Source: Chitinophagaceae bacterium
GTDB lineage: Bacteria; Bacteroidota; Bacteroidia; Chitinophagales; Chitinophagaceae
Reading direction: 5' to 3'
DNA length: 56,086 nucleotides
Assembly (NCBI GenBank): GCA_014879545.1
Contig: JACSRV010000100.1
Location: 1 to 56,086 of the forward strand
Part shown: positions 29,143 to 56,086 of the stretch, piece by piece
Layout of the letters: every line of letters begins with the position of its first letter
Numbering within the stretch: the first letter of the stretch is position 1
Notes under the pieces: generated by a model
Told to the model about the DNA's origin: nothing
Databases searched by the model: none
Seen by the model: only the letters and a program-made list of their open reading frames with translations
Program-made: the position numbers and the translations under genes

Positions 29143-30522
29143 TTGTCCGTTACTACGCCTTTGTGTAAATTTATATTTGTGCGCATCCTTCAAAAACTCT
29201 ACCTCACTATTTTGCCGGCCATATTTGCCGTCATGGCGCATGCACAAGTGAATATTATTACCACAATTGCAGGGAAGACTCCTTATGGGTTTAGTGGCGA
29301 TGGCGGACCGGCAACTAATGCACAGTTGAAAGCGCCATATAGGATTTGCCCAGACCAATTAGGGAATATACATATTGCTGACGCATTAAATCATAGAATA
29401 CGGTCAGTATCAGCATCCGGTGTTATCGCAACTACTGTGGGCAAAGGCTCTGCGGGGTTCTCTGGTGATGGTGGTGATGCGATAAGCGCTGAAATAGAAG
29501 TTCCTCAAGGAGTATTTGTTGACAAAAACAATAATCTGCTCATTTGCGATGGAGTAAATAACAGGATACGGAAAGTCGATTTGTCAACTGGCATAATCAG
29601 CACAATAGTTGGCACTGGCATTGGAGGAAACGGGGGAGATGGAGGAGCGGCAACGAGTGCGGAGTTAAACGGACCCGTTGGCATATGTACGGATAAGGAT
29701 GGAAATATTTTTATTGCTGATTGGAGAAATAAGAAAGTGAGAGTAGTGAAATCTCTAACGAATGAAATCACAACTTTTGCCGGAACAGGTGGTGGTGGTT
29801 TCTCGGGAGATGGTGGGCCAGCTAATAACGCTACAATCGATGGGCCAGAGCAAGTATTTGCTGACACAAATGGAAACATACTTATTGCAGACCAATACAA
29901 TCATCGCATCAGAAAGGTCGATCGCGTTACTCAAATTATCACAACCATAGCAGGAAACGGAACCGCAGGATATTCAGGAGACGGAGGACTTGCGGTAAAT
30001 GCCAAACTGAATCAGCCGACTGGACTATTTGTAGATAAGCAAAACAATATTTACGTAGCAGAATATGGCAATGGAACTGTCCGAAAAATAGATGGATCAA
30101 CAGGCATCATAACAACCGTTGCCGGTACCGGTGTTACCGGATTCTCCGGCGATGGTGGGCCCGCAACTAATGCGAAACTATTTTGCAGTGATGTATTTGT
30201 AGATAGTTTTGGCAACCTCATCATAGCAGACTATGAGAATAACAGAATAAGGAAAGTTAGTAGCGGTGTTGCCGTGACAGATATAGATAAAGCGGTTGAG
30301 GCGAAGTTGTTTCCCAACCCTACAACCTGTATGTTTTCGGTGCAGGTACCAGCTGGTCTTGCACTGCTTACTATTTACAATATCGGAGGGGTGGCCGTTC
30401 TCTCACAAACCATAACTACAGGCACTGCTGAGGTAGATCTTTCGGGTTTTCCATCCGGCATTTACCTGGTGTATGTGCGGAGTGGTGATAAGCTTTATGC
30501 AAATAAGGTATTGAAACAATGA
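29143..30522 (+). CDS. NHL-repeat protein 1 with T9SS type A sorting domain
   Basis: repeats ITTIAGxGxxGxSGDGGPATNAxL...VDxxGNxxIADxxNxRIRKV; C-terminal AKLFPNPTT...GIYLVYVRSGDKLYANKVLKQ; start uncertain (TTG 29143 or GTG 29179). Confidence 0.88.
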   Translation: MSVTTPLCKFIFVRILQKLYLTILPAIFAVMAHAQVNIITTIAGKTPYGFSGDGGPATNAQLKAPYRICPDQLGNIHIADALNHRIRSVSASGVIATTVGKGSAGFSGDGGDAISAEIEVPQGVFVDKNNNLLICDGVNNRIRKVDLSTGIISTIVGTGIGGNGGDGGAATSAELNGPVGICTDKDGNIFIADWRNKKVRVVKSLTNEITTFAGTGGGGFSGDGGPANNATIDGPEQVFADTNGNILIADQYNHRIRKVDRVTQIITTIAGNGTAGYSGDGGLAVNAKLNQPTGLFVDKQNNIYVAEYGNGTVRKIDGSTGIITTVAGTGVTGFSGDGGPATNAKLFCSDVFVDSFGNLIIADYENNRIRKVSSGVAVTDIDKAVEAKLFPNPTTCMFSVQVPAGLALLTIYNIGGVAVLSQTITTGTAEVDLSGFPSGIYLVYVRSGDKLYANKVLKQ

Positions 30523-31850
30523 TAAGGACTATCCTGATATTGATATTTTCCTGTACCTGCTTCATAAGCCAGGCACAGGTGAATATTATTACGACCATAG
30601 CGGGAAATGGAAATGCTGCATATAGTGGTGATGGAGGACCGGCAACGAGTGCGGAGTTTAACAGGCCGAGTGCGGTGTGTTTCGACAAGTTCGACAATGC
30701 TTATGTGACCGATGCTTTTAATCATAGGGTCAGGAAGATAACCTTAACAACAGGTATAGTGACGACATATGCAGGCAACGGAGTTGCCTCATTTTCGGGA
30801 GATGGAGGAAATGCAATAGATGCAGAATTTTATGTTCCTCAAGGTGTTCTAGTTGATGATGACGGCAATGTATATATCTCAGATGGCGGTAACTATAGAA
30901 TTCGTAAAGTGAATGTTGCAACAAATATAGTAACTACGATTGCGGGAAATGGTTTTTCGGGACTCGCAGGTGACGGCGGTATCGCGATAAATGCTGAACT
31001 GGGGCAACCTATTGGACTTGCAATTAAAAACAACGAGTTGCTAATTGGCGACTACGATAATGGAGTTGTCAGGAAATTGAACCTAACAACGGGCGTTATT
31101 ACTAGAGTGGCAGGAAATGGCATTCCCGGATATTCGGGAGATGGTGGTGCTGCAGTATTGGCACAGCTAAATGGTGTGTCAGATATCTTCGTTGATCAAT
31201 CCGGGAACATATTAGTAGTGGAGCAGTGGAATGGTGTAGTGAGAAAAATAGACGCCGCAAATGGTGCTATCACAACCGTCGTAGGTAAAGGGACTTTGGG
31301 GTATTCGGGCGATGGCGGTGCTGCCATCAACGCGGAACTAAATGAACCTACAGGAATTTTTGTAGATAAGCACAATAATCTATACATATCCGACTACCGC
31401 AATGGTGCCATAAGAAAAGTAGATGCAGCAACAGGTATTATTACTACGTTGGCAGGTGGTATTTCTGGATATGGAGGCGACGGTGGCCCGGCTACTAACG
31501 CAAAACTAAAATGTACTGATGTTTGGGTAGATGACAATGGGAATATTTATATAGCAGACTATGTAAACAACAGAATAAGAAAAGTCAGCAGCGGTGTAGC
31601 TGTAACTGATGTAGACAAAGGTGTTGAGGCGAAGTTGTTTCCAAATCCTACTACCGGTGTGTTTTCGGTGAAGGTACCGGCAGGTATTTCGTTGCTTACT
31701 ATTTACAATATAGGAGGCGTGGAGGTTCTCTCTCAAACGATAACGACCGGAACGGCTGAAGTAGATCTCTCAAGTTTTCCTTCCGGCATCTACCTGGTGT
31801 ATGTGCGGAGTGGCGATAAGCTTTATGTGAATAAGGTGATGAAGAATTGA
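30519..31850 (+). CDS. NHL-repeat protein 2 with T9SS type A sorting domain
   Basis: same architecture; ATGA overlap with the previous gene. Confidence 0.9.
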   Translation: MIRTILILIFSCTCFISQAQVNIITTIAGNGNAAYSGDGGPATSAEFNRPSAVCFDKFDNAYVTDAFNHRVRKITLTTGIVTTYAGNGVASFSGDGGNAIDAEFYVPQGVLVDDDGNVYISDGGNYRIRKVNVATNIVTTIAGNGFSGLAGDGGIAINAELGQPIGLAIKNNELLIGDYDNGVVRKLNLTTGVITRVAGNGIPGYSGDGGAAVLAQLNGVSDIFVDQSGNILVVEQWNGVVRKIDAANGAITTVVGKGTLGYSGDGGAAINAELNEPTGIFVDKHNNLYISDYRNGAIRKVDAATGIITTLAGGISGYGGDGGPATNAKLKCTDVWVDDNGNIYIADYVNNRIRKVSSGVAVTDVDKGVEAKLFPNPTTGVFSVKVPAGISLLTIYNIGGVEVLSQTITTGTAEVDLSSFPSGIYLVYVRSGDKLYVNKVMKN

Positions 31851-32149
31851 GGGTAAGCGAACAAAGACCAACTATTAAACCAACTACTACAGATTGGCAG
31901 GGACAAATTTATTCTTTGTACCCCAATCCTAACGATGGTAATCTGACTCTGGTGCAGTTGATCCAAGATACATCAGTTATTTCAATCGACATTTCAGATG
32001 TTTTGGGAAGAAGTGTACTTAAGGAACAAGTAGTATTCAGAGAAAAAAGTCATGATTTACATCTTGAAAATATTACTGCCGGACTGTATGTGGTCAGTAC
32101 AATAGACTCAAAAGGCAGGACGTTTATCTTTAAATTTGTAAAACAATGA
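31847..32149 (+). pseudogene. orphan T9SS C-terminal sorting domain (possible gene remnant)
   Basis: IYSLYPNPNDGNLTLVQL...LENITAGLYVVSTIDSKGRTFIFKFVKQ; no passenger domain; TTG start in a TTGA overlap. Confidence 0.6.
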
Positions 32150-33483
32150 TTAGATGTATTTTATTAGTAATTTTCACTTGCTCTTGCATATTCGCGCAGG
32201 CGCAGGTGAATATTATTACCACAATTGCCGGAAAATCTATTTATGGGTTTAGTGGCGATGGAGGACCTGCAACTGATGCACAGTTAAAAGCCCCTTACAA
32301 GATATGTACCGATCAGGCAGGGGATATTTACATCGCAGACGCCTACAATCATAGAATTAGAAGAATCATCTGTGCAACAGGTACTATTACAACCATTGCG
32401 GGTAATGGTGTTGGAGGTTTTTCTGGCGATGGAGGACCTGCAACAAACGCCCAGTTTGCAGTCCCTCAAGCAGTGACAATAGACGCTCAAAATAATATAT
32501 ATATATGTGACGGTCTTAACCACAGAGTTAGGAAAATATTTGCTGCAACTGGTATAGTGATAACCATTGCAGGCACAGGCATTGGCGGAGGTAATGGAGA
32601 CGGAGGTCCAGCGACAAATGCAGAATTAAATCAGCCTGGTGGAGTTTTTGTTGATAAAAACGGAGATGTTTACATCGCAGACTGGGGGAACAATAAAGTA
32701 AGGAAGATTACATATTCTACCGGAATAATTAAAACAATTGCAGGTACGGGAGTTGGTGGATATTCTGGTGACGGAGGAATTGCTACGAACGCAAAAATAT
32801 CGAGACCAGTAGATGTTTTCTGTGACACTTCCGGCAATATTTTGATTGCAGAGTTGGATAATAATTTGATAAGAAAAGTCAATTTTATCACAAATATTAT
32901 CACCACAATTTCCGGCGATGGATCTGTAGGTTACTCTGGCGACGGAGGACTTGCGATAAATGCTAAACTGAATCAACCGACAGGGCTATTTGTAGACAAG
33001 CAAAACAATATTTACGTTGCGGAATATGGCAATGGAACTGTCCGAAGAATAGATGGATCAACAGGCATCATAACAACCGTTGCCGGGACAGGCGTTACCG
33101 GTTTTTCCGGAGATGGTGGGCCTGCTACTAATGCAAAACTATTTTGCAGTGACGTATTTGTAGATAGTTATGGCAATCTGATCATAGCAGATTATGAGAA
33201 TAACAGAATCAGAAAAGTGAGTAGCGGTGTAGCTGTAACTGATGTAGATAAAGGTGTTGAGGCGAAGTTGTTTCCAAATCCTACAACCGGTGTATTTTCT
33301 GTGCAGGTTCCTGTCGGCATTTCGCTGCTTACTATTTACAATATCGGAGGAGTGGCCGTTCTATCACAAACCATTACGACCGGAACGGCTGAAGTAGATC
33401 TTTCGGGTTTTCCTTCCGGCATCTACCTGGTGTATGTACGGAGTGGTGATAAGCTCTACGTGAATAAGGTGATGAAACAATGA
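32146..33483 (+). CDS. NHL-repeat protein 3 with T9SS type A sorting domain
   Basis: same architecture; ATGA overlap with the orphan ORF. Confidence 0.9.
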   Translation: MIRCILLVIFTCSCIFAQAQVNIITTIAGKSIYGFSGDGGPATDAQLKAPYKICTDQAGDIYIADAYNHRIRRIICATGTITTIAGNGVGGFSGDGGPATNAQFAVPQAVTIDAQNNIYICDGLNHRVRKIFAATGIVITIAGTGIGGGNGDGGPATNAELNQPGGVFVDKNGDVYIADWGNNKVRKITYSTGIIKTIAGTGVGGYSGDGGIATNAKISRPVDVFCDTSGNILIAELDNNLIRKVNFITNIITTISGDGSVGYSGDGGLAINAKLNQPTGLFVDKQNNIYVAEYGNGTVRRIDGSTGIITTVAGTGVTGFSGDGGPATNAKLFCSDVFVDSYGNLIIADYENNRIRKVSSGVAVTDVDKGVEAKLFPNPTTGVFSVQVPVGISLLTIYNIGGVAVLSQTITTGTAEVDLSGFPSGIYLVYVRSGDKLYVNKVMKQ

Positions 33484-34817
33484 TAAGGACTATCCTGATA
33501 TTGATATTTTCCTGTTCCTGCTTTTTAAGCCAGGCACAGGTGAATATTATTACAACGATTGCGGGAAAAGACACCTATGGGTTTAGTGGCGACGGAGGCC
33601 CGGCAACTAATGCAAAACTGAAAGCACCTTACAGAATTTGTCTTGATAAAGGTGACAATATATTTATTGCTGATGCACTTAATCACAGAATACGCAGAAT
33701 TTCAAAAGCTGACGGATATATTTCCACGATTGTTGGCACTGGTTCTCCTGGTTTCAATGGTGACGGTGGGACAGCCACTGATGCAAAGCTGGAAGTTCCA
33801 CAGGGGATATTCATCGATGATAATGGCAATTTGTTTATTTGCGATGCAATAAGCGAGCGAATTAGAAAGGTTGAATTGTCTACCGGTATCATTACTTCAA
33901 TTGCAGGAACCGGTTCAATTGGAAACGGTGGCGACGGTGGGGCGGCGACCAATGCCGAATTTTACTATCCTGTGGGTTTGTTCGTAAATAAGACAGGAGA
34001 GATCTTTATTGCAGACTGGGGCAACAAAAAGATAAGAGTCATAAATCCCACTTCAGGCGTCATAACTACATTCGCGGGAACAGGGACTGGGGGGTATTCG
34101 GGTGATGGAGGTCCCGCAATTAATGCAACACTAGATGCACCGTTAGATGTGTATGCGGACACCAATGGCAATATATTGGTTTCAGAACAATATAATCATA
34201 GAGTAAGGAAGGTAGACGCGGTCACAGGTATTATCACAACGATTGCCGGGAATGGAACTGCGGGATATTCGGGTGACGGTGGTTTGGCAATAAACGCTAA
34301 ACTAAACGAACCAGATGGTCTTTTTGTTGACAAGCACAACAACGTATTTATTACGGATTATTACAACGGATCGATACGAAAAATAGATGGATCAACTGGC
34401 ATCATAACCACCGTTGCCGGAACGGGCGTAACGGGATTCTCGGGTGATGGTGGGCCTGCTACTAATGCGAAACTATTTTGTAGTGATGTATTTGTAGATA
34501 GTTATGGAAATCTGATCATAGCAGATTATGAGAATAACAGAATAAGAAAAGTGAGTAGCGGTGTAGCTGTGACTGATATAGATAAGTCTGTTGAGGCGAA
34601 GTTGTTTTCCAATCCTACTACCGGTGTGTTTTCGGTGCAGGTACCAGCTGGTATTTCGTTGCTTACTATTTACAATATTGGAGGTGTGGCCGTTCTCTCT
34701 CAAACCATTACTACCGGAACGGCTGAAGTAGACCTTTCGGGTTTCCCTTCCGGCATCTACCTGGTGTATGTGCGGAGTGGTGATAAGTTGTATGTGAATA
34801 AGGTGGTGAAGCAATGA
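33480..34817 (+). CDS. NHL-repeat protein 4 with T9SS type A sorting domain
   Basis: same architecture; ATGA overlap; signal peptide region nearly identical to protein 2. Confidence 0.9.
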   Translation: MIRTILILIFSCSCFLSQAQVNIITTIAGKDTYGFSGDGGPATNAKLKAPYRICLDKGDNIFIADALNHRIRRISKADGYISTIVGTGSPGFNGDGGTATDAKLEVPQGIFIDDNGNLFICDAISERIRKVELSTGIITSIAGTGSIGNGGDGGAATNAEFYYPVGLFVNKTGEIFIADWGNKKIRVINPTSGVITTFAGTGTGGYSGDGGPAINATLDAPLDVYADTNGNILVSEQYNHRVRKVDAVTGIITTIAGNGTAGYSGDGGLAINAKLNEPDGLFVDKHNNVFITDYYNGSIRKIDGSTGIITTVAGTGVTGFSGDGGPATNAKLFCSDVFVDSYGNLIIADYENNRIRKVSSGVAVTDIDKSVEAKLFSNPTTGVFSVQVPAGISLLTIYNIGGVAVLSQTITTGTAEVDLSGFPSGIYLVYVRSGDKLYVNKVVKQ

Positions 34818-34867: not shown

Positions 34868-34946
34868 TTCACCGCACAATGTGCGGTGAAAAGACGCGCA
34901 TGCGGTGAATAATCCGTATATTCGCCGCACAATCTGCGGAGAATGT
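34868..34946. promoter_or_regulatory. overlapping inverted repeats (TTCACCGCA/TGCGGTGAA units) at the Fic start
   Basis: TTCACCGCAcaatgTGCGGTGAA, TGCGGTGAATaatccgtatATTCGCCGCA, ATTCGCCGCAcaatcTGCGGAGAATG; the last half-site contains the ATG at 34943. Confidence 0.85.
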
Positions 34947-36043
34947 TTATCCATGAGCTAAAAGGCTGGCCGGCTTTTGAATGGGACGACCATCACATCA
35001 CCACGCTGCTGGCACGCGTGCGGCACCGGCAGGGACTGCTGTGCGGCCGCATGAGCGCGCTTGGCTTCGACCTCAGGCAAGAAGCAGCACTGCGCTCGCT
35101 GACCCTGGAGGTGGTAAAATCGAACGAGATAGAAGGCGAACTGCTCGATAAAGCACTGGTGCGGTCGTCTATAGCGCGCCGCCTGGGCATGGATATAGCA
35201 GGGCTGCTGCCCGCCGACAGAACGGTGGAAGGAATTGTAGAAATGATGCTGGACGCCACCCGACACTATGACCAAACCCTTACCGATGACAGACTCTTTG
35301 CCTGGCACGCCACCCTTTTCCCCACAGGTCGCAGCGGACTGTACAAAATAACCACCGGCCAATGGCGCGACGGGCACAACGGGGCCATGCAGGTAGTATC
35401 GGGGCCTATGGGCCGAGAGCAGGTACACTTTACCGCACCCGACGCCCACCGACTTGCCGCCGAGATGAGCGCATTTCTGCATTGGTTCAACACCCCGTCT
35501 TCTCATGACCCGGTGCTGCGTGCGGCCGTGGCCCATCTGTGGTTCATCACCATCCACCCGTTCGATGACGGCAATGGCCGCATAGCACGCGCCATAACGG
35601 ACATGCAGCTGGCACGTGCCGATGGCGACCCGCAACGCTTCTACAGCATGTCCGTTCAGATAGAAAAAGAGAAACAAGCCTACTACAACATTCTGGAGCG
35701 CACACAACGCGGCACACTTAACATAACCGATTGGATGGTATGGTTTCTTGAGTGCCTGGAAGGTGCCCTGCAACAGGCCGAGGTGACTTTGGCATCGGTG
35801 CTGAAACGTGCCGCATTTATGGACCGCATAGCCGGCATAGTGCTCAACGAGCGCCAGCAACACATGATCTTGCGTCTCACCGACGATTTCTTCGGCCGAC
35901 TGACATCATCAAAATGGGCCAAACTGACAAAGTGCTCACAAGACACCGCGCTGAGGGATATTCAAGACCTGATGCAAAAAGGCATTGTGACAAAAGACGA
36001 CATGGGCGGCAGAAGCACCGGATATGTGCTGAAAGATTTTTAG
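34943..36043 (+). CDS. Fic family protein with N-terminal inhibitory motif and C-terminal wHTH
   Basis: HPFDDGNGRIARAI; SNEIEG; C-terminal wHTH ALRDIQDLMQKGIVTKDDMGGRSTGYVL. Confidence 0.93.
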   Translation: MFIHELKGWPAFEWDDHHITTLLARVRHRQGLLCGRMSALGFDLRQEAALRSLTLEVVKSNEIEGELLDKALVRSSIARRLGMDIAGLLPADRTVEGIVEMMLDATRHYDQTLTDDRLFAWHATLFPTGRSGLYKITTGQWRDGHNGAMQVVSGPMGREQVHFTAPDAHRLAAEMSAFLHWFNTPSSHDPVLRAAVAHLWFITIHPFDDGNGRIARAITDMQLARADGDPQRFYSMSVQIEKEKQAYYNILERTQRGTLNITDWMVWFLECLEGALQQAEVTLASVLKRAAFMDRIAGIVLNERQQHMILRLTDDFFGRLTSSKWAKLTKCSQDTALRDIQDLMQKGIVTKDDMGGRSTGYVLKDF

Positions 36044-38679: not shown

Positions 38680-38770
38680 GCGCCAAAGGTAGAAAGTTAC
38701 AGCTACAAAACAGGTAACCCCCGTCAGCCGCATTTGTTGCGCATGCGGCAGAATGCCGTTACTTTGCAGC

Positions 38771-41212
38771 ATGTTCGCCGACATCATCCTCCCGCTCAAT
38801 CTGCCCCAGGTGCTCACCTATGGTGTGCCTGTAGATATGCAGGACCGCCTGCGGCCGGGCATGCGTGTGGAGGTGGCACTGGGCAAGAACAAACAATATG
38901 CCGGCATCGTAGAGCGCCTGCACAATCACCGCCCGGATGGCTATCAGGTAAAACCCGTGCGCAACATCATAGACGAAGAACCTGTGGTGAGCGAACGGCA
39001 ACTGCAGTTCTGGCGCTGGGTGGCCGGTTACTACATGGCATCGCCCGGCGAGGTGATGCAGGCCGCACTGCCCGCCCACCTGAAACTGATGGGCGAGACC
39101 CGCCTCGAGTGGGCCGGCGACGAAAGTGTGGTGTATGACTGGACCGATGCCGCCTGGCATGCCGCCGATGCGCTGCAACTGCGCAAAGAGATAACCATAA
39201 GCGAGCTGCGCGCCCTCACCGGTGCCGACCATTTTGCCGCCGTACTCAACGAGCTGCTGGAAAAGGAAGCCGTCATCATCAACGAAACGCTGGAGACCGC
39301 CTACCGGCCCCGCCGCGAAAAGGTGGTCACCATGGCAGCCCGCTACAAAGAAGAAAAGGAACTCATAGCCCTGTTCGATCAGCTGGGGCGTGCACCCCGC
39401 CAGTTGCAACTGGTGATGGCCTATACCGAACTGAAAATGAAGAACGGCATCGTGCGCCAGACCGATCTGCTGGAACGTGCACAGGCGACCGCTTCGCAAG
39501 TGAGCTCGCTGGTAGACAAAGGTGTCTTTGTCATCTCTGAGCAGCAGGTAGACCGACTGCCCTATACCGGCTCAGAAGATGTGCGCGACATCCGCTTCAC
39601 ACCTGCGCAGCAAACCGCTTTCGAAGAACTGAACAAAGGCCTTGCCGAAAAGAAAGTAGCACTGCTGCATGGGGTCACCGGCAGTGGTAAGACACTCCTT
39701 TACATTCAAAAGATACGCGAGTGCCTGGCACAGGGCAGGCAGGCCATTCTGCTGCTACCCGAGATAGGCCTCACCACACAACTGGTGAGCCGCCTCAATG
39801 CCTACTTCGGTGCCGAGCTGGGAGTGTATCATTCGCACTTCAGCAACAACGAGCGGGTGGAGATATGGGAGAAGGTGCGCAAGGGCACCTACAAGGTAGT
39901 GGCCGGTCCGCGGTCGGCACTGTGGCTGCCCTACAACGACATTGGCCTCATCATTGCCGATGAGGAACATGATTCTTCCTACAAACAAAAAGACCCCGCG
40001 CCCCGCTTCCATGCCCGCGATGCCGCCATCTACATGGCCCGCCTGCACGATGCCGGGATCATACTCGGTTCGGCAACACCCGCTGTGGAAACACTCTACA
40101 ACGTGCAGCAGGGCAAGTATGCCTATGCCGCGCTCAAAGACCGCTACCAGGGCGTGAAGATGCCCGAGATAAGGATCATAGACGCCCGCTCGCTGAACGC
40201 TGCCGGAAAGGGATCGCAACAGATGCTGACACCCGAACTGCAGCAGGCCATCACCGAGGCACTGTCTGAAAAGAAACAGGCCATCCTCTTCCAGAACCGC
40301 CGTGGTTATTCACCTTTCCAGTTGTGTACCACCTGTGGCTGGTCGCCCCGCTGCAAGAACTGCGATGTGTCGCTCACCTACCACAAAAGCACCGACAAGC
40401 TGCACTGCCACTACTGCGGCTACAAGGCACCCGTCATGAGCGCCTGCCCGCAATGCGGCAGCCAGAGTGTCACCAGCAAAAGTTTCGGCACCGAGCGCAT
40501 TGAAGAAGAGGTGCAGCAAATGTATCCCGATGCCCGCGTGGCCCGCATGGATGTGGACAGCATGAAGGGCCGCAACAGCATCTCCGAACTGCTCACCAAG
40601 CTGGAGAAACGAAAAATAGATATCCTCACCGGCACACAAATGGTGGTGAAGGGGCTGGACCTGGAAGCCGTGGCGCTGGTGGGCATCATCAGTGCCGATA
40701 GCCTGCTCACCTTCCCCGACTTCCGCGTGAATGAACGCGCCTTCCAGCTCATGGAGCAGGTGAGCGGACGGGCCGGACGGGCCGACGGGGTGGGCCATGT
40801 GCTCATTCAGGCATTCAACATTCAGCACCCGGTGCTGCAATGGGTGAAACAGCACGATGTGCAGGCCTTCTACCGCCACGAGATCGCCTACCGCGAACAT
40901 TTCTTTTATCCGCCCTTCAGCCGCATCATCAAGATCATCTTCCGCCATGCCGACGAAGACAAGACCATAGCCGCAGCGCAGCTCATGGCCGATGCGCTCA
41001 CTACCATCACCAACATTTCAGTGCAGGGGCCCGGCCCGGCCATTGTGCCACGCGTACGCAATCAGTACATCCGCGAGATATGGATCAAGTGCCCCCGCGA
41101 CCAGCGCCTTATCGAGTCGGTCAAGCAGTTCCTGCGCGCGCAGCGCCAGCACATCCTGAGCCTCAAGGGCAATACAAGTGTACAGGTGGTCTTCGACGTA
41201 GACCCCATGTAA
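38771..41212 (+). CDS. priA: primosomal protein N' (PriA helicase)
   Basis: LLHGVTGSGKTLLYIQKI; IIADEEHDSSYKQ; zinc cysteines CTTCGWSPRCKNCDVSLTYHKSTDKLHCHYCG...CPQCGS. Confidence 0.95.
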   Translation: MFADIILPLNLPQVLTYGVPVDMQDRLRPGMRVEVALGKNKQYAGIVERLHNHRPDGYQVKPVRNIIDEEPVVSERQLQFWRWVAGYYMASPGEVMQAALPAHLKLMGETRLEWAGDESVVYDWTDAAWHAADALQLRKEITISELRALTGADHFAAVLNELLEKEAVIINETLETAYRPRREKVVTMAARYKEEKELIALFDQLGRAPRQLQLVMAYTELKMKNGIVRQTDLLERAQATASQVSSLVDKGVFVISEQQVDRLPYTGSEDVRDIRFTPAQQTAFEELNKGLAEKKVALLHGVTGSGKTLLYIQKIRECLAQGRQAILLLPEIGLTTQLVSRLNAYFGAELGVYHSHFSNNERVEIWEKVRKGTYKVVAGPRSALWLPYNDIGLIIADEEHDSSYKQKDPAPRFHARDAAIYMARLHDAGIILGSATPAVETLYNVQQGKYAYAALKDRYQGVKMPEIRIIDARSLNAAGKGSQQMLTPELQQAITEALSEKKQAILFQNRRGYSPFQLCTTCGWSPRCKNCDVSLTYHKSTDKLHCHYCGYKAPVMSACPQCGSQSVTSKSFGTERIEEEVQQMYPDARVARMDVDSMKGRNSISELLTKLEKRKIDILTGTQMVVKGLDLEAVALVGIISADSLLTFPDFRVNERAFQLMEQVSGRAGRADGVGHVLIQAFNIQHPVLQWVKQHDVQAFYRHEIAYREHFFYPPFSRIIKIIFRHADEDKTIAAAQLMADALTTITNISVQGPGPAIVPRVRNQYIREIWIKCPRDQRLIESVKQFLRAQRQHILSLKGNTSVQVVFDVDPM

Positions 41213-53967: not shown

Positions 53968-54327
53968 CTATTGAGATTTTTCTTCAAGGTTTTTGATCAT
54001 TGTGTACAACATCTTTGACTGTTCCTCATAACTGGCTCTCAATTCCCGATATTGCTCTTCGGAAATTTCTCTTTCAACAAATAGAAATTCGATTAGCGAG
54101 GCACATTCGAGTGCGGAACTTCTAGCTGTTACAAAAAAATTTCTGCGGTCTTTTTTAGCAAATCGCCCCGAACCCTCCGCAATATTCAACTGAATACTCA
54201 AACTCGCTCTGCCAAGCTGATCTTTGAAATATCGTGGAATTGCAATATCGGTCTTAAGTAGTCGGTATATCTTTTGATTTTGAGCAAAAGCCCTTTTGTA
54301 AACTTCAAGGTTTTCAAATGTGAACAT
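53968..54327 (-). CDS. four-helix-bundle protein (23S rRNA intervening-sequence-protein family)
   Basis: MFTFENLEVYKRAFAQNQKIY...ASLSIQLNIAEGSGR...ECASLIEFL. Confidence 0.88.
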   Translation of the reverse strand: MFTFENLEVYKRAFAQNQKIYRLLKTDIAIPRYFKDQLGRASLSIQLNIAEGSGRFAKKDRRNFFVTARSSALECASLIEFLFVEREISEEQYRELRASYEEQSKMLYTMIKNLEEKSQ

Positions 54328-54463
54328 TGTATAAAAGTAATATCAGTAGGGAAAAAGGAAAAGCCGTAAAACAGAAAGGAAAAAGGAAACAGAAACAGTG
54401 CGAGTGAACAGGAAAGAACAGAAACAGGCTACGCACTGTTGCTTCGCACTGTTTCTGTTCTTG

Positions 54464-54545
54464 TGCGGGTGGAGGGACTCGAACCCCCAAGCCTCGCAGC
54501 ACCAGATCCTAAGTCTGGCGTGTCTACCAATTTCACCACACCCGC
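54464..54545 (-). tRNA. tRNA-Leu (anticodon TAG)
   Basis: GCGGGTGTGGTGAAATTGGTAGACACGCCAGACTTAGGATCTGG...GGGGGTTCGAGTCCCTCCACCCGCA; closed acceptor stem, long variable arm, CTTAGGA anticodon loop, no encoded CCA. Confidence 0.95.
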
Positions 54546-54628: not shown

Positions 54629-55083
54629 TTATTCACAATTAACTGCTTCATTTTCAACAAACTGGTGGAATGCGCCGTAAAAGTTACATTACCATTATCT
54701 TATTGTTAGATAACACTTAATTGCTGTTGGTAAGTGCATACTTAGGCGTAAGTAACTAACACACAAACGGCAGAAAGTACTTTTCAGATAATGAGGGCGG
54801 GAAAATTTTTTCGGTTGTTAGACCTAATCCACACCGTGCTACGATATTAACCTACTCTTATTTGCCAACATCAATGTTTATTCACAATCCACATCAATGC
54901 TGTGAGATAGGCTATTTTACTACATTCTACGGTGTTGATAACCATAGAGCGCTATGTGTATAAAGTCAACTTCTGATAATAGCAATAGGGATAACCCTAA
55001 TTATTCCCCTAATCCACCACCGTAATAGTAATAGTCCTTTTTTTAAAAAAATTTTGATTTACTATTATTACAGATGTGGAAAT
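54629..55083. other. candidate chromosomal replication origin (oriC)
   Basis: three exact TTATNCACA DnaA boxes, several one-mismatch boxes, two mirrored box/trio units, AT-rich core. Confidence 0.6.
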
Positions 55084-55145: not shown

Positions 55146-56071
55146 ATGAGTCAGACGTTGGAAGAATTGGGTTATCTGGATATTGAAGTAGATCCTACCT
55201 TGGATCTTTTTGCTGAGATAGAAAAACTAAAGAAGGAAAAGAACGCTGTTATCCTGGCGCACTATTATCAGGAGCCTGACATACAGGACATTGCAGATTA
55301 TATTGGTGACAGTCTGGGTTTGGCCAGAAATGCGGCTAAGACCGATGCTGACATTATAGTTTTTGCCGGTGTTCATTTTATGGCTGAAACAGCCAAAATT
55401 CTCAATCCAACAAAAAAGGTATTGATACCTGATCTGAAGGCAGGTTGTTCTTTAAGCGATAGTTGTCCACCAGATCTGTTCAGGAAGTTTAAGGAACAAC
55501 ATCCGGAACATACTGTAATTTCTTATATCAACTGTTCAGCAGGAATAAAGGCTCTAAGTGATATTATTTGTACTTCTTCTAATGCGAAAGCAATAGTTGA
55601 TAGTTTGCCTATTGACGAGAAGATAATATTTGCTCCAGATAAGAACCTGGGTGCTTATATTAACAAGGTTACCGGGCGTGATATGTTGTTGTGGAACGGC
55701 ACTTGTATGGTACATGAGCTGTTTTCGTTAGAGAAGATAACAAAGTTGAAGACGAGACATCCAGAGGCGAAACTTATTGCTCATCCTGAATGTGAAGAGG
55801 CTGTATTGAGGATAGCAGATTTTGTGGGTAGTACTACTGCATTGCTGGAGTATTCGCAGAATGATAGTTGTGATACGTTTATTGTAGCTACTGAATCCGG
55901 TATATTACATAAAATGATACAGGGTTCTCCTACGAAGACGTTTATTGCCGCTCCTCCTGACAATGCTTGTGCTTGCAATGATTGTCCTCACATGAAACGA
56001 AATACTTTAGAGAAGATCTACGTTTGTCTGAAGTATGAGCAACCTGAGATACTGATGGATGAGTCTTTGAG
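55146..56071 (+). CDS. nadA: quinolinate synthase, 3'-truncated by contig end
   Basis: translated by eye: [88 protein letters not shown]...[20 protein letters not shown]; not in the ORF track because it runs off the end. Confidence 0.95.
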
Positions 56072-56086
56072 CTGTCTCTTATACAC
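56072..56086 (+). other. Nextera/Tn5 transposase mosaic-end adapter residue
   Basis: terminal CTGTCTCTTATACAC equals the first 15 nt of CTGTCTCTTATACACATCT. Confidence 0.9.

Follow-up and report, generated by a model that had tools for sequence, protein, structure and literature searches.

A candidate chromosomal origin with two facing DnaA-box/DnaA-trio modules across an AT core in a Chitinophagaceae bacterium

The tRNA-Leu to nadA interval

The window analyzed in this study, a stretch of 56,086 nucleotides, is the whole of contig C139, which belongs to a 3.48-Mb draft genome of 250 contigs from a Chitinophagaceae bacterium. The nadA gene at its right end is closest to the nadA genes of Chitinophagaceae/Chitinophagales. 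Between the tRNA-Leu gene and nadA lies a candidate origin interval in which no recognizable protein-coding gene was found (Table 1). The contig ends at 56072-56086 with CTGTCTCTTATACAC, and nadA is truncated there. We take CTGTCTCTTATACAC to be the Nextera transposon-end adapter, so these last bases are presumably an artefact.

Several other genes of the window were recorded. A protein of the 23S rRNA intervening-sequence family (PF05635) is encoded at 53968-54327, between the candidate origin and the genes to its left, and priA, encoding the primosomal helicase, occupies 38753-41212, approximately 14 kb from the origin core. Four paralogues, each about 445 aa long and carrying NHL-repeat propellers plus a Por secretion tail, are encoded at 29143-34817, a block of lower G+C content and of skew opposite to that of its surroundings. 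This block is followed by a Fic/DUF4172 protein at 34943-36043.

Table 1. Features of the candidate origin interval and its flanks (window coordinates)
Feature	Position	Strand	Remarks
tRNA-Leu	54463-54545	-	left boundary of intergenic region
DnaA box TTATTCACA, exact	54629-54637	+	motif match in window
DnaA-box-like TAATCCACA, 1 mismatch	54825-54833	+	left part of box cluster; CCACA kept in genus alignment
Conserved stretch, not a box	54838-54852	+	genus consensus CTACGATATTaAggt; window GCTACGATATTAACC
Conserved tandem boxes	54877-54893	+	genus consensus TTTATCCACAATCCACA; window TTTATTCACAATCCACA; exact TTATTCACA at 54878-54886
DnaA-box-like TTATCAACA	54933-54941	-	conserved as TGTTGATAAC on + strand
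DnaA box TTATACACA	54955-54963	-	conserved in genus
Conserved 14-mer GCAATAGGGATAAC, not a box	54982-54995	+	genus consensus GCAATAGGAATAAC
Left unit box 1 TTATTCCCC, degenerate	55001-55009	+	TTATCCAC in many relatives
Left unit box 2 TAATCCACC	55010-55018	+	consensus AATCCACA
Left DnaA-trio tract	55022-55036	-	+ strand GTA ATA GTA ATA GTC; canonical - strand 3'-CAT TAT CAT TAT CAG-5'
AT core TTTTTTTAAAAAAATTTT (T7A7)	55038-55055		presumed melting center; mirror axis ~55046
Right DnaA-trio tract, mirror image	55057-55071	+	- strand GTA ATA ATA GTA AAT
Right unit DnaA box ATTTCCACA	55075-55083	-	perfect TTATNCACA in many congeners
nadA (quinolinate synthase)	55146-56071	+	cut by contig end

As at bacterial oriCs, the boxes of the interval are clustered in non-coding, AT-rich DNA. 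Exact copies of TTATNCACA number nine in the window as against 2.4 expected from shuffles, and three of the nine fall within 335 bp. Across the genus, the motif TTWTNCACA has a density of 2.69 per 400 bp around the unit and of 0.091 in flanking DNA, an enrichment of approximately 30-fold. To the left of the AT core, boxes 1 and 2 are arranged in tandem. The first-pass annotation had listed exact boxes, one-mismatch boxes and trios and had described two inward-facing units of identical spacing. Indeed, a motif check in the window located every element where it had been placed, and the spacing is equal on both sides: a box, 3 nt, then GTAATA. In the window, 65 bp, or approximately six helical turns, separate the centers of the outer boxes.

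Trio strand and published rules for unwinding modules

In the first-pass annotation, the trios had been assigned to the same strand as the boxes and read as (T/A)A(G/A). This assignment was revised, as the trios of published origins lie on the opposite strand (PMC8235120, PMC7561715). In Helicobacter pylori, a perfect trio (3'-GAT-5') is seen downstream of the box as 5'-CTA-3', and reversing its polarity blocks opening (PMC8235120). The box-trio sequence of Clostridioides difficile is CACC-TACTACTATTACTACTA (PMC7561715). Based on this geometry, the trios belong opposite the TTATCCACA strand, and the canonical reading of the left trios of the window is 3'-CAT-TAT-CAT-TAT-5'. Because TAR repeats allow a reading on each of the two strands, trio register and strand are both ambiguous. 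Thus, TAATAGTAATAG is readable either way, and conservation alone leaves the strand undecided, as the invariant TA-R steps suit both readings. Only the ATC/ATG repeats of L052 (ATCATCATC) and L006 (ATGATGATA) discriminate; in these, the central base is preserved under the canonical reading but not under the other. The mirror argument made below is independent of the choice of strand.

We compared both sides with the published search rules for a basal unwinding system (BUS), which allow a box up to two mismatches to TTATCCACA, and a tandem pair up to two and up to four (PMC8287927). The left boxes TAATCCACC and TTATTCCCC have two and three mismatches, respectively, and the right box ATTTCCACA has two; the boxes of congeners are nearer the consensus. 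The same rules place the trios within 16 bp of the box and call for at least three 3'-NAN-5' motifs (PMC8287927). Here, the distance is 3 nt on each side, and the motifs on the presumed canonical strands are 3'-CAT TAT CAT TAT CAG-5' on the left and 3'-CAT TAT TAT CAT-5' on the right.

Conservation in the genus, the family and beyond

The regions upstream of nadA in relatives align across the whole unit. On the left, the genus alignment (n = 32) contains the tandem boxes TTATTCCCC-NATCCACAC, separated by a short spacer from TAATAGTAATAG; the AT core, which includes TTTTTAAAAA, is followed on the right by TATTATTA and, after another short spacer, by TGTGGATAA. A sequence-only profile, R1, identified one strong locus in 34 of 35 congeneric genomes. 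This locus was always upstream of nadA and was matched on both strands, the signature of an inverted repeat. Secondary matches of R1 in congeners were far weaker, with E values of 9e-4 or worse, and in the sole congener that had no R1 match, nadA was not found either. Similarly, a profile of the left half, R2, gave a single match in the window genome, in which no second unwinding module was found at E ≤ 0.01. One locus per chromosome, conserved among relatives, is the pattern of a bacterial oriC. The origin proposal had been staked on boxes and trios being conserved in close relatives, and both were.

In profile searches, the tandem-box module was present in 257 of the 299 family genomes sampled and in 163 of 299 order genomes; with the sequence profile, a candidate oriC can thus be located in draft genomes of the Chitinophagaceae. 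When the scans were extended to the class, the two models matched few genomes, 17 and 29 of 295. Among matches in other families, the mirrored box was present in some (L271/L329, L275/L326) and clearly absent in others. Two-sided units of similar spacing occur in at least 11 further genera (g2, g30, g36, g45, g58, g67, g87, g94, g104, g115 and g120), a count that is not a prevalence, as the genera were chosen by profile score. Many other genera, including Chitinophaga, have the left unit only, the right box being absent, and some carry a mirrored trio tract with no box. Since so many relatives do without the right box, a two-sided unit is not needed for function in the family.

Mirror symmetry of the two units

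The genus profile, of whose 32 sequences the window itself is one, matched the window on both strands, with E values of 1.5e-17 and 1.5e-7. For the mirror test, the training set of the matrix consisted exclusively of left halves from other genera, which avoids circularity, and the DNA downstream of the left unit was scanned on its reverse strand. The right half of the window scored 20.2 with this matrix, above all 100 shuffles. Compared directly, the left and right halves of the window agree at 20 of 37 positions (permutation p = 0.003); the window alone therefore provides modest evidence for the mirror, and its relatives carry the case.

Using the same test, a mirrored right half was found in all 32 genus sequences, with the end of the best match 59-61 bp away from the first trio on the left. 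The score exceeded that of each of 100 dinucleotide shuffles in 31 of the 32 sequences; for the remaining sequence, p was 0.04. A control scan of the forward strand was negative. In congeners, the right box was often a better match to the consensus than were the left boxes. Judged from these alignments and scores, the mirror is not a product of chance, and the symmetric double unit is real and conserved.

Relation to nadA

The right end of the unit is only 62 bp upstream of nadA in the window genome, and the arms of the unit are inverted repeats. Both properties are consistent with the palindrome being a nadA control element, such as the operator of a regulator, an attenuator hairpin or a terminator, with no relation to replication. 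However, RNAalifold predicted neither a consensus hairpin nor any base pairs at the unit, and an Rfam search yielded only the tRNA, with no riboswitch or other RNA family. Scans for terminators and sigma-70 sites gave nothing convincing at the unit. Moreover, in the g2 genome G035, the unit is 383 kb from nadA on one contig and is still two-sided; it is flanked there by a PHA-synthase-like (phaC-like) gene and an ABC transporter gene, both named from their translations. Based on the lack of predicted pairs and the retention of the unit away from nadA in g2, the RNA-hairpin and nadA-leader readings were disfavored. The wide conservation of the left half alone, the approximately 30-fold enrichment of DnaA boxes and the change of skew sign that two relatives show at the unit, described below, also speak against nadA control, which we consider very improbable.

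In other genera (L157, L160, L163, L167, L171, L176, L181 and others), the right box overlaps the first nadA codons, ATG-NNT-GTG. At these starts, the third base of codon 2 is T although residue 2 itself varies. GTG is used as codon 3 in 15 of 17 cases, whereas it accounts for 61 of 220 (28%) valine codons elsewhere in nadA; the difference corresponds to p = 3e-7 when kinship is ignored. Although the sequences are related, the bias points to selection on the DNA and not on the protein. In some genera, a replication element thus appears to occupy the first codons of nadA.

Assignment as the probable chromosomal origin

GC skew was evaluated in two complete genomes of the family using sampled windows that amounted to approximately 12% of each genome. 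In G229 (3.32 Mb, unit at 147.9 kb), the 20-kb windows beside the unit had skews of -0.023 and +0.035; in G277 (3.72 Mb, unit at 949.5 kb), the corresponding values were -0.043 and +0.054. The arms mostly hold their sign, and the skew reverts at approximately 1.7-1.8 Mb in G229 and 2.9-3.2 Mb in G277, near the antipodes. The strand-composition switch of an oriC is therefore present in both genomes and, as the skew flips at the unit and reverts about half a genome away, the unit marks oriC in these family members.

Within the genus of the window genome, the skew signal was weak but significant. Specifically, in 10 congeners analyzed over 20 kb per side, the skew was higher on the nadA side in nine, with a mean difference of +0.057 (Wilcoxon p = 0.0098), part of which may stem from gene direction. 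In G002, the best congener assembly, the skew over ±200 kb was noisy, with only a local minimum at the unit. In G035, it steps from approximately zero to positive at the unit, the left side being near zero rather than negative; the skew is positive on both sides of nadA, with no switch at that gene. For the window, the skew reported in the first-pass annotation (C>G to the left, G>C at nadA) is correct, with only about 1 kb lying to the right of the core.

An origin beside dnaA was also considered and was rejected, as the 3.5 kb around dnaA contained no TTWTNCACA. Both DnaA and DciA, the helicase loader, are encoded in the window genome.

Clustered DnaA boxes of opposite orientations might instead represent a site of DnaA titration or reactivation, of the datA or DARS type, and inverted boxes do occur at DARS (PMC10316083). 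Such a site would be a box cluster with no unwinding element, away from the skew switch. By contrast, the locus described here contains an AT core with trios, is the one strong locus per genome and coincides with the skew switch in relatives, and no second unwinding module was found in the window genome at E ≤ 0.01. We regard a datA or DARS function as extremely improbable.

The proposal of an origin is supported by the single locus per genome, the family-wide unwinding module and the change of skew sign in two complete relatives. By homology, this locus is very probably where the bacterium starts to copy its chromosome, that is, the oriC of the window genome. As to its extent and make-up, the region from approximately 54825 to 55083 is probably the chromosomal oriC, consisting of a left DnaA-box cluster and two facing unwinding modules across an AT core.

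Comparison with known origins

The unit shares with the B. subtilis BUS the tandem DnaA boxes, a short spacer, at least three central-A trinucleotides opposite TTATCCACA and an AT-rich stretch. The BUS publications describe one BUS per origin, and the search program keeps a single best candidate (PMC6669920, PMC8287927, PMC10721633), whereas here a second, inverted BUS closes the far side of the AT core. The oriC2 regions of H. pylori (PMC8235120) and C. difficile (PMC7561715) contain a box, a spacer, 5'-CTA-type trios and a DUE, in the order and polarity of the left unit. As described, they are one-sided and their trios are mostly CTA; the present trios are ATA/GTA and are accompanied by a mirrored unit. 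In the E. coli oriC, which also has oppositely oriented box clusters, a DUE and two helicases for the two strands (review PMC13220808), the DUE is at one side of the box cluster, whereas here boxes and trios flank the AT core on both sides. The Thermotoga maritima oriC similarly has TAG/TAA trio elements in its DUE and inverted DnaA boxes, but the latter lie within one DnaA-oligomerizing region with no facing second trio tract (PMC10316083). No mirrored or double BUS was found in the literature searched, which covers few subscription papers or preprints.

Proposed opening of the AT core from two ends

In the mechanism we propose, the left DnaA-box cluster would gather DnaA, and DnaA at each outer box would nucleate a filament that runs inward across the trios. 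In the canonical geometry, the left filament would lie on the minus strand and the right filament on the plus strand. With filaments advancing from both outer boxes, the duplex between the boxes would be opened at the AT core from two ends, each strand carrying a DnaA filament. Each filament would then direct one DnaB helicase to one strand, probably via DciA, giving rise to two oppositely moving forks. We infer DnaA binding, melting, the use of both halves and the guided loading of two helicases from the arrangement of the module. Facing opening signals of this kind could account for the bidirectional launch of replication.

Alternatively, the locus may be oriC with only the left tandem-box unit unwinding, as in B. 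subtilis. The right half might then, for example, anchor or limit the open region, or regulate transcription of nadA; DnaA is a known transcription regulator. Consistent with this alternative, the part conserved throughout the family is the left half, many genera lack the right box, and the right box, where present, overlaps the nadA start or sits immediately before it. However, the right half comprises a box, a spacer and trios rather than a box alone, at 59-61 bp in 32 of 32 congeners; its box is frequently the better match, and it persists where nadA is not a neighbor. Unwinding from the left unit alone seems unlikely to us, although it deserves to be taken seriously.

The two-ended opening proposed above leads to a broader reading: in a clade of the Chitinophagaceae, the origin DNA itself would encode bidirectionality, through two opposed modules, DnaA filaments on opposite strands and one helicase for each, unlike one-sided origins. 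We hold this reading tentatively; it is plausible, but we lean slightly against it. How two helicases are loaded in opposite orientations at one bacterial origin is a stated open question (PMC10721633, PMC10201434). Origins with a symmetric pair, beside relatives with one module, constitute matched natural variants for this question.

Finally, ORFs of approximately 150-190 aa matching the C-terminal, box-binding domain of DnaA were observed in most congeners; in about ten of these genomes, they lie on the contig that carries the origin. Examples include G029:C31:69077, G018:C6:75177, G020:C39:41773, G009:C33:34277 and G019:C98:50472. The neighbors of two such ORFs, at L314 and L315, look phage- or element-like.
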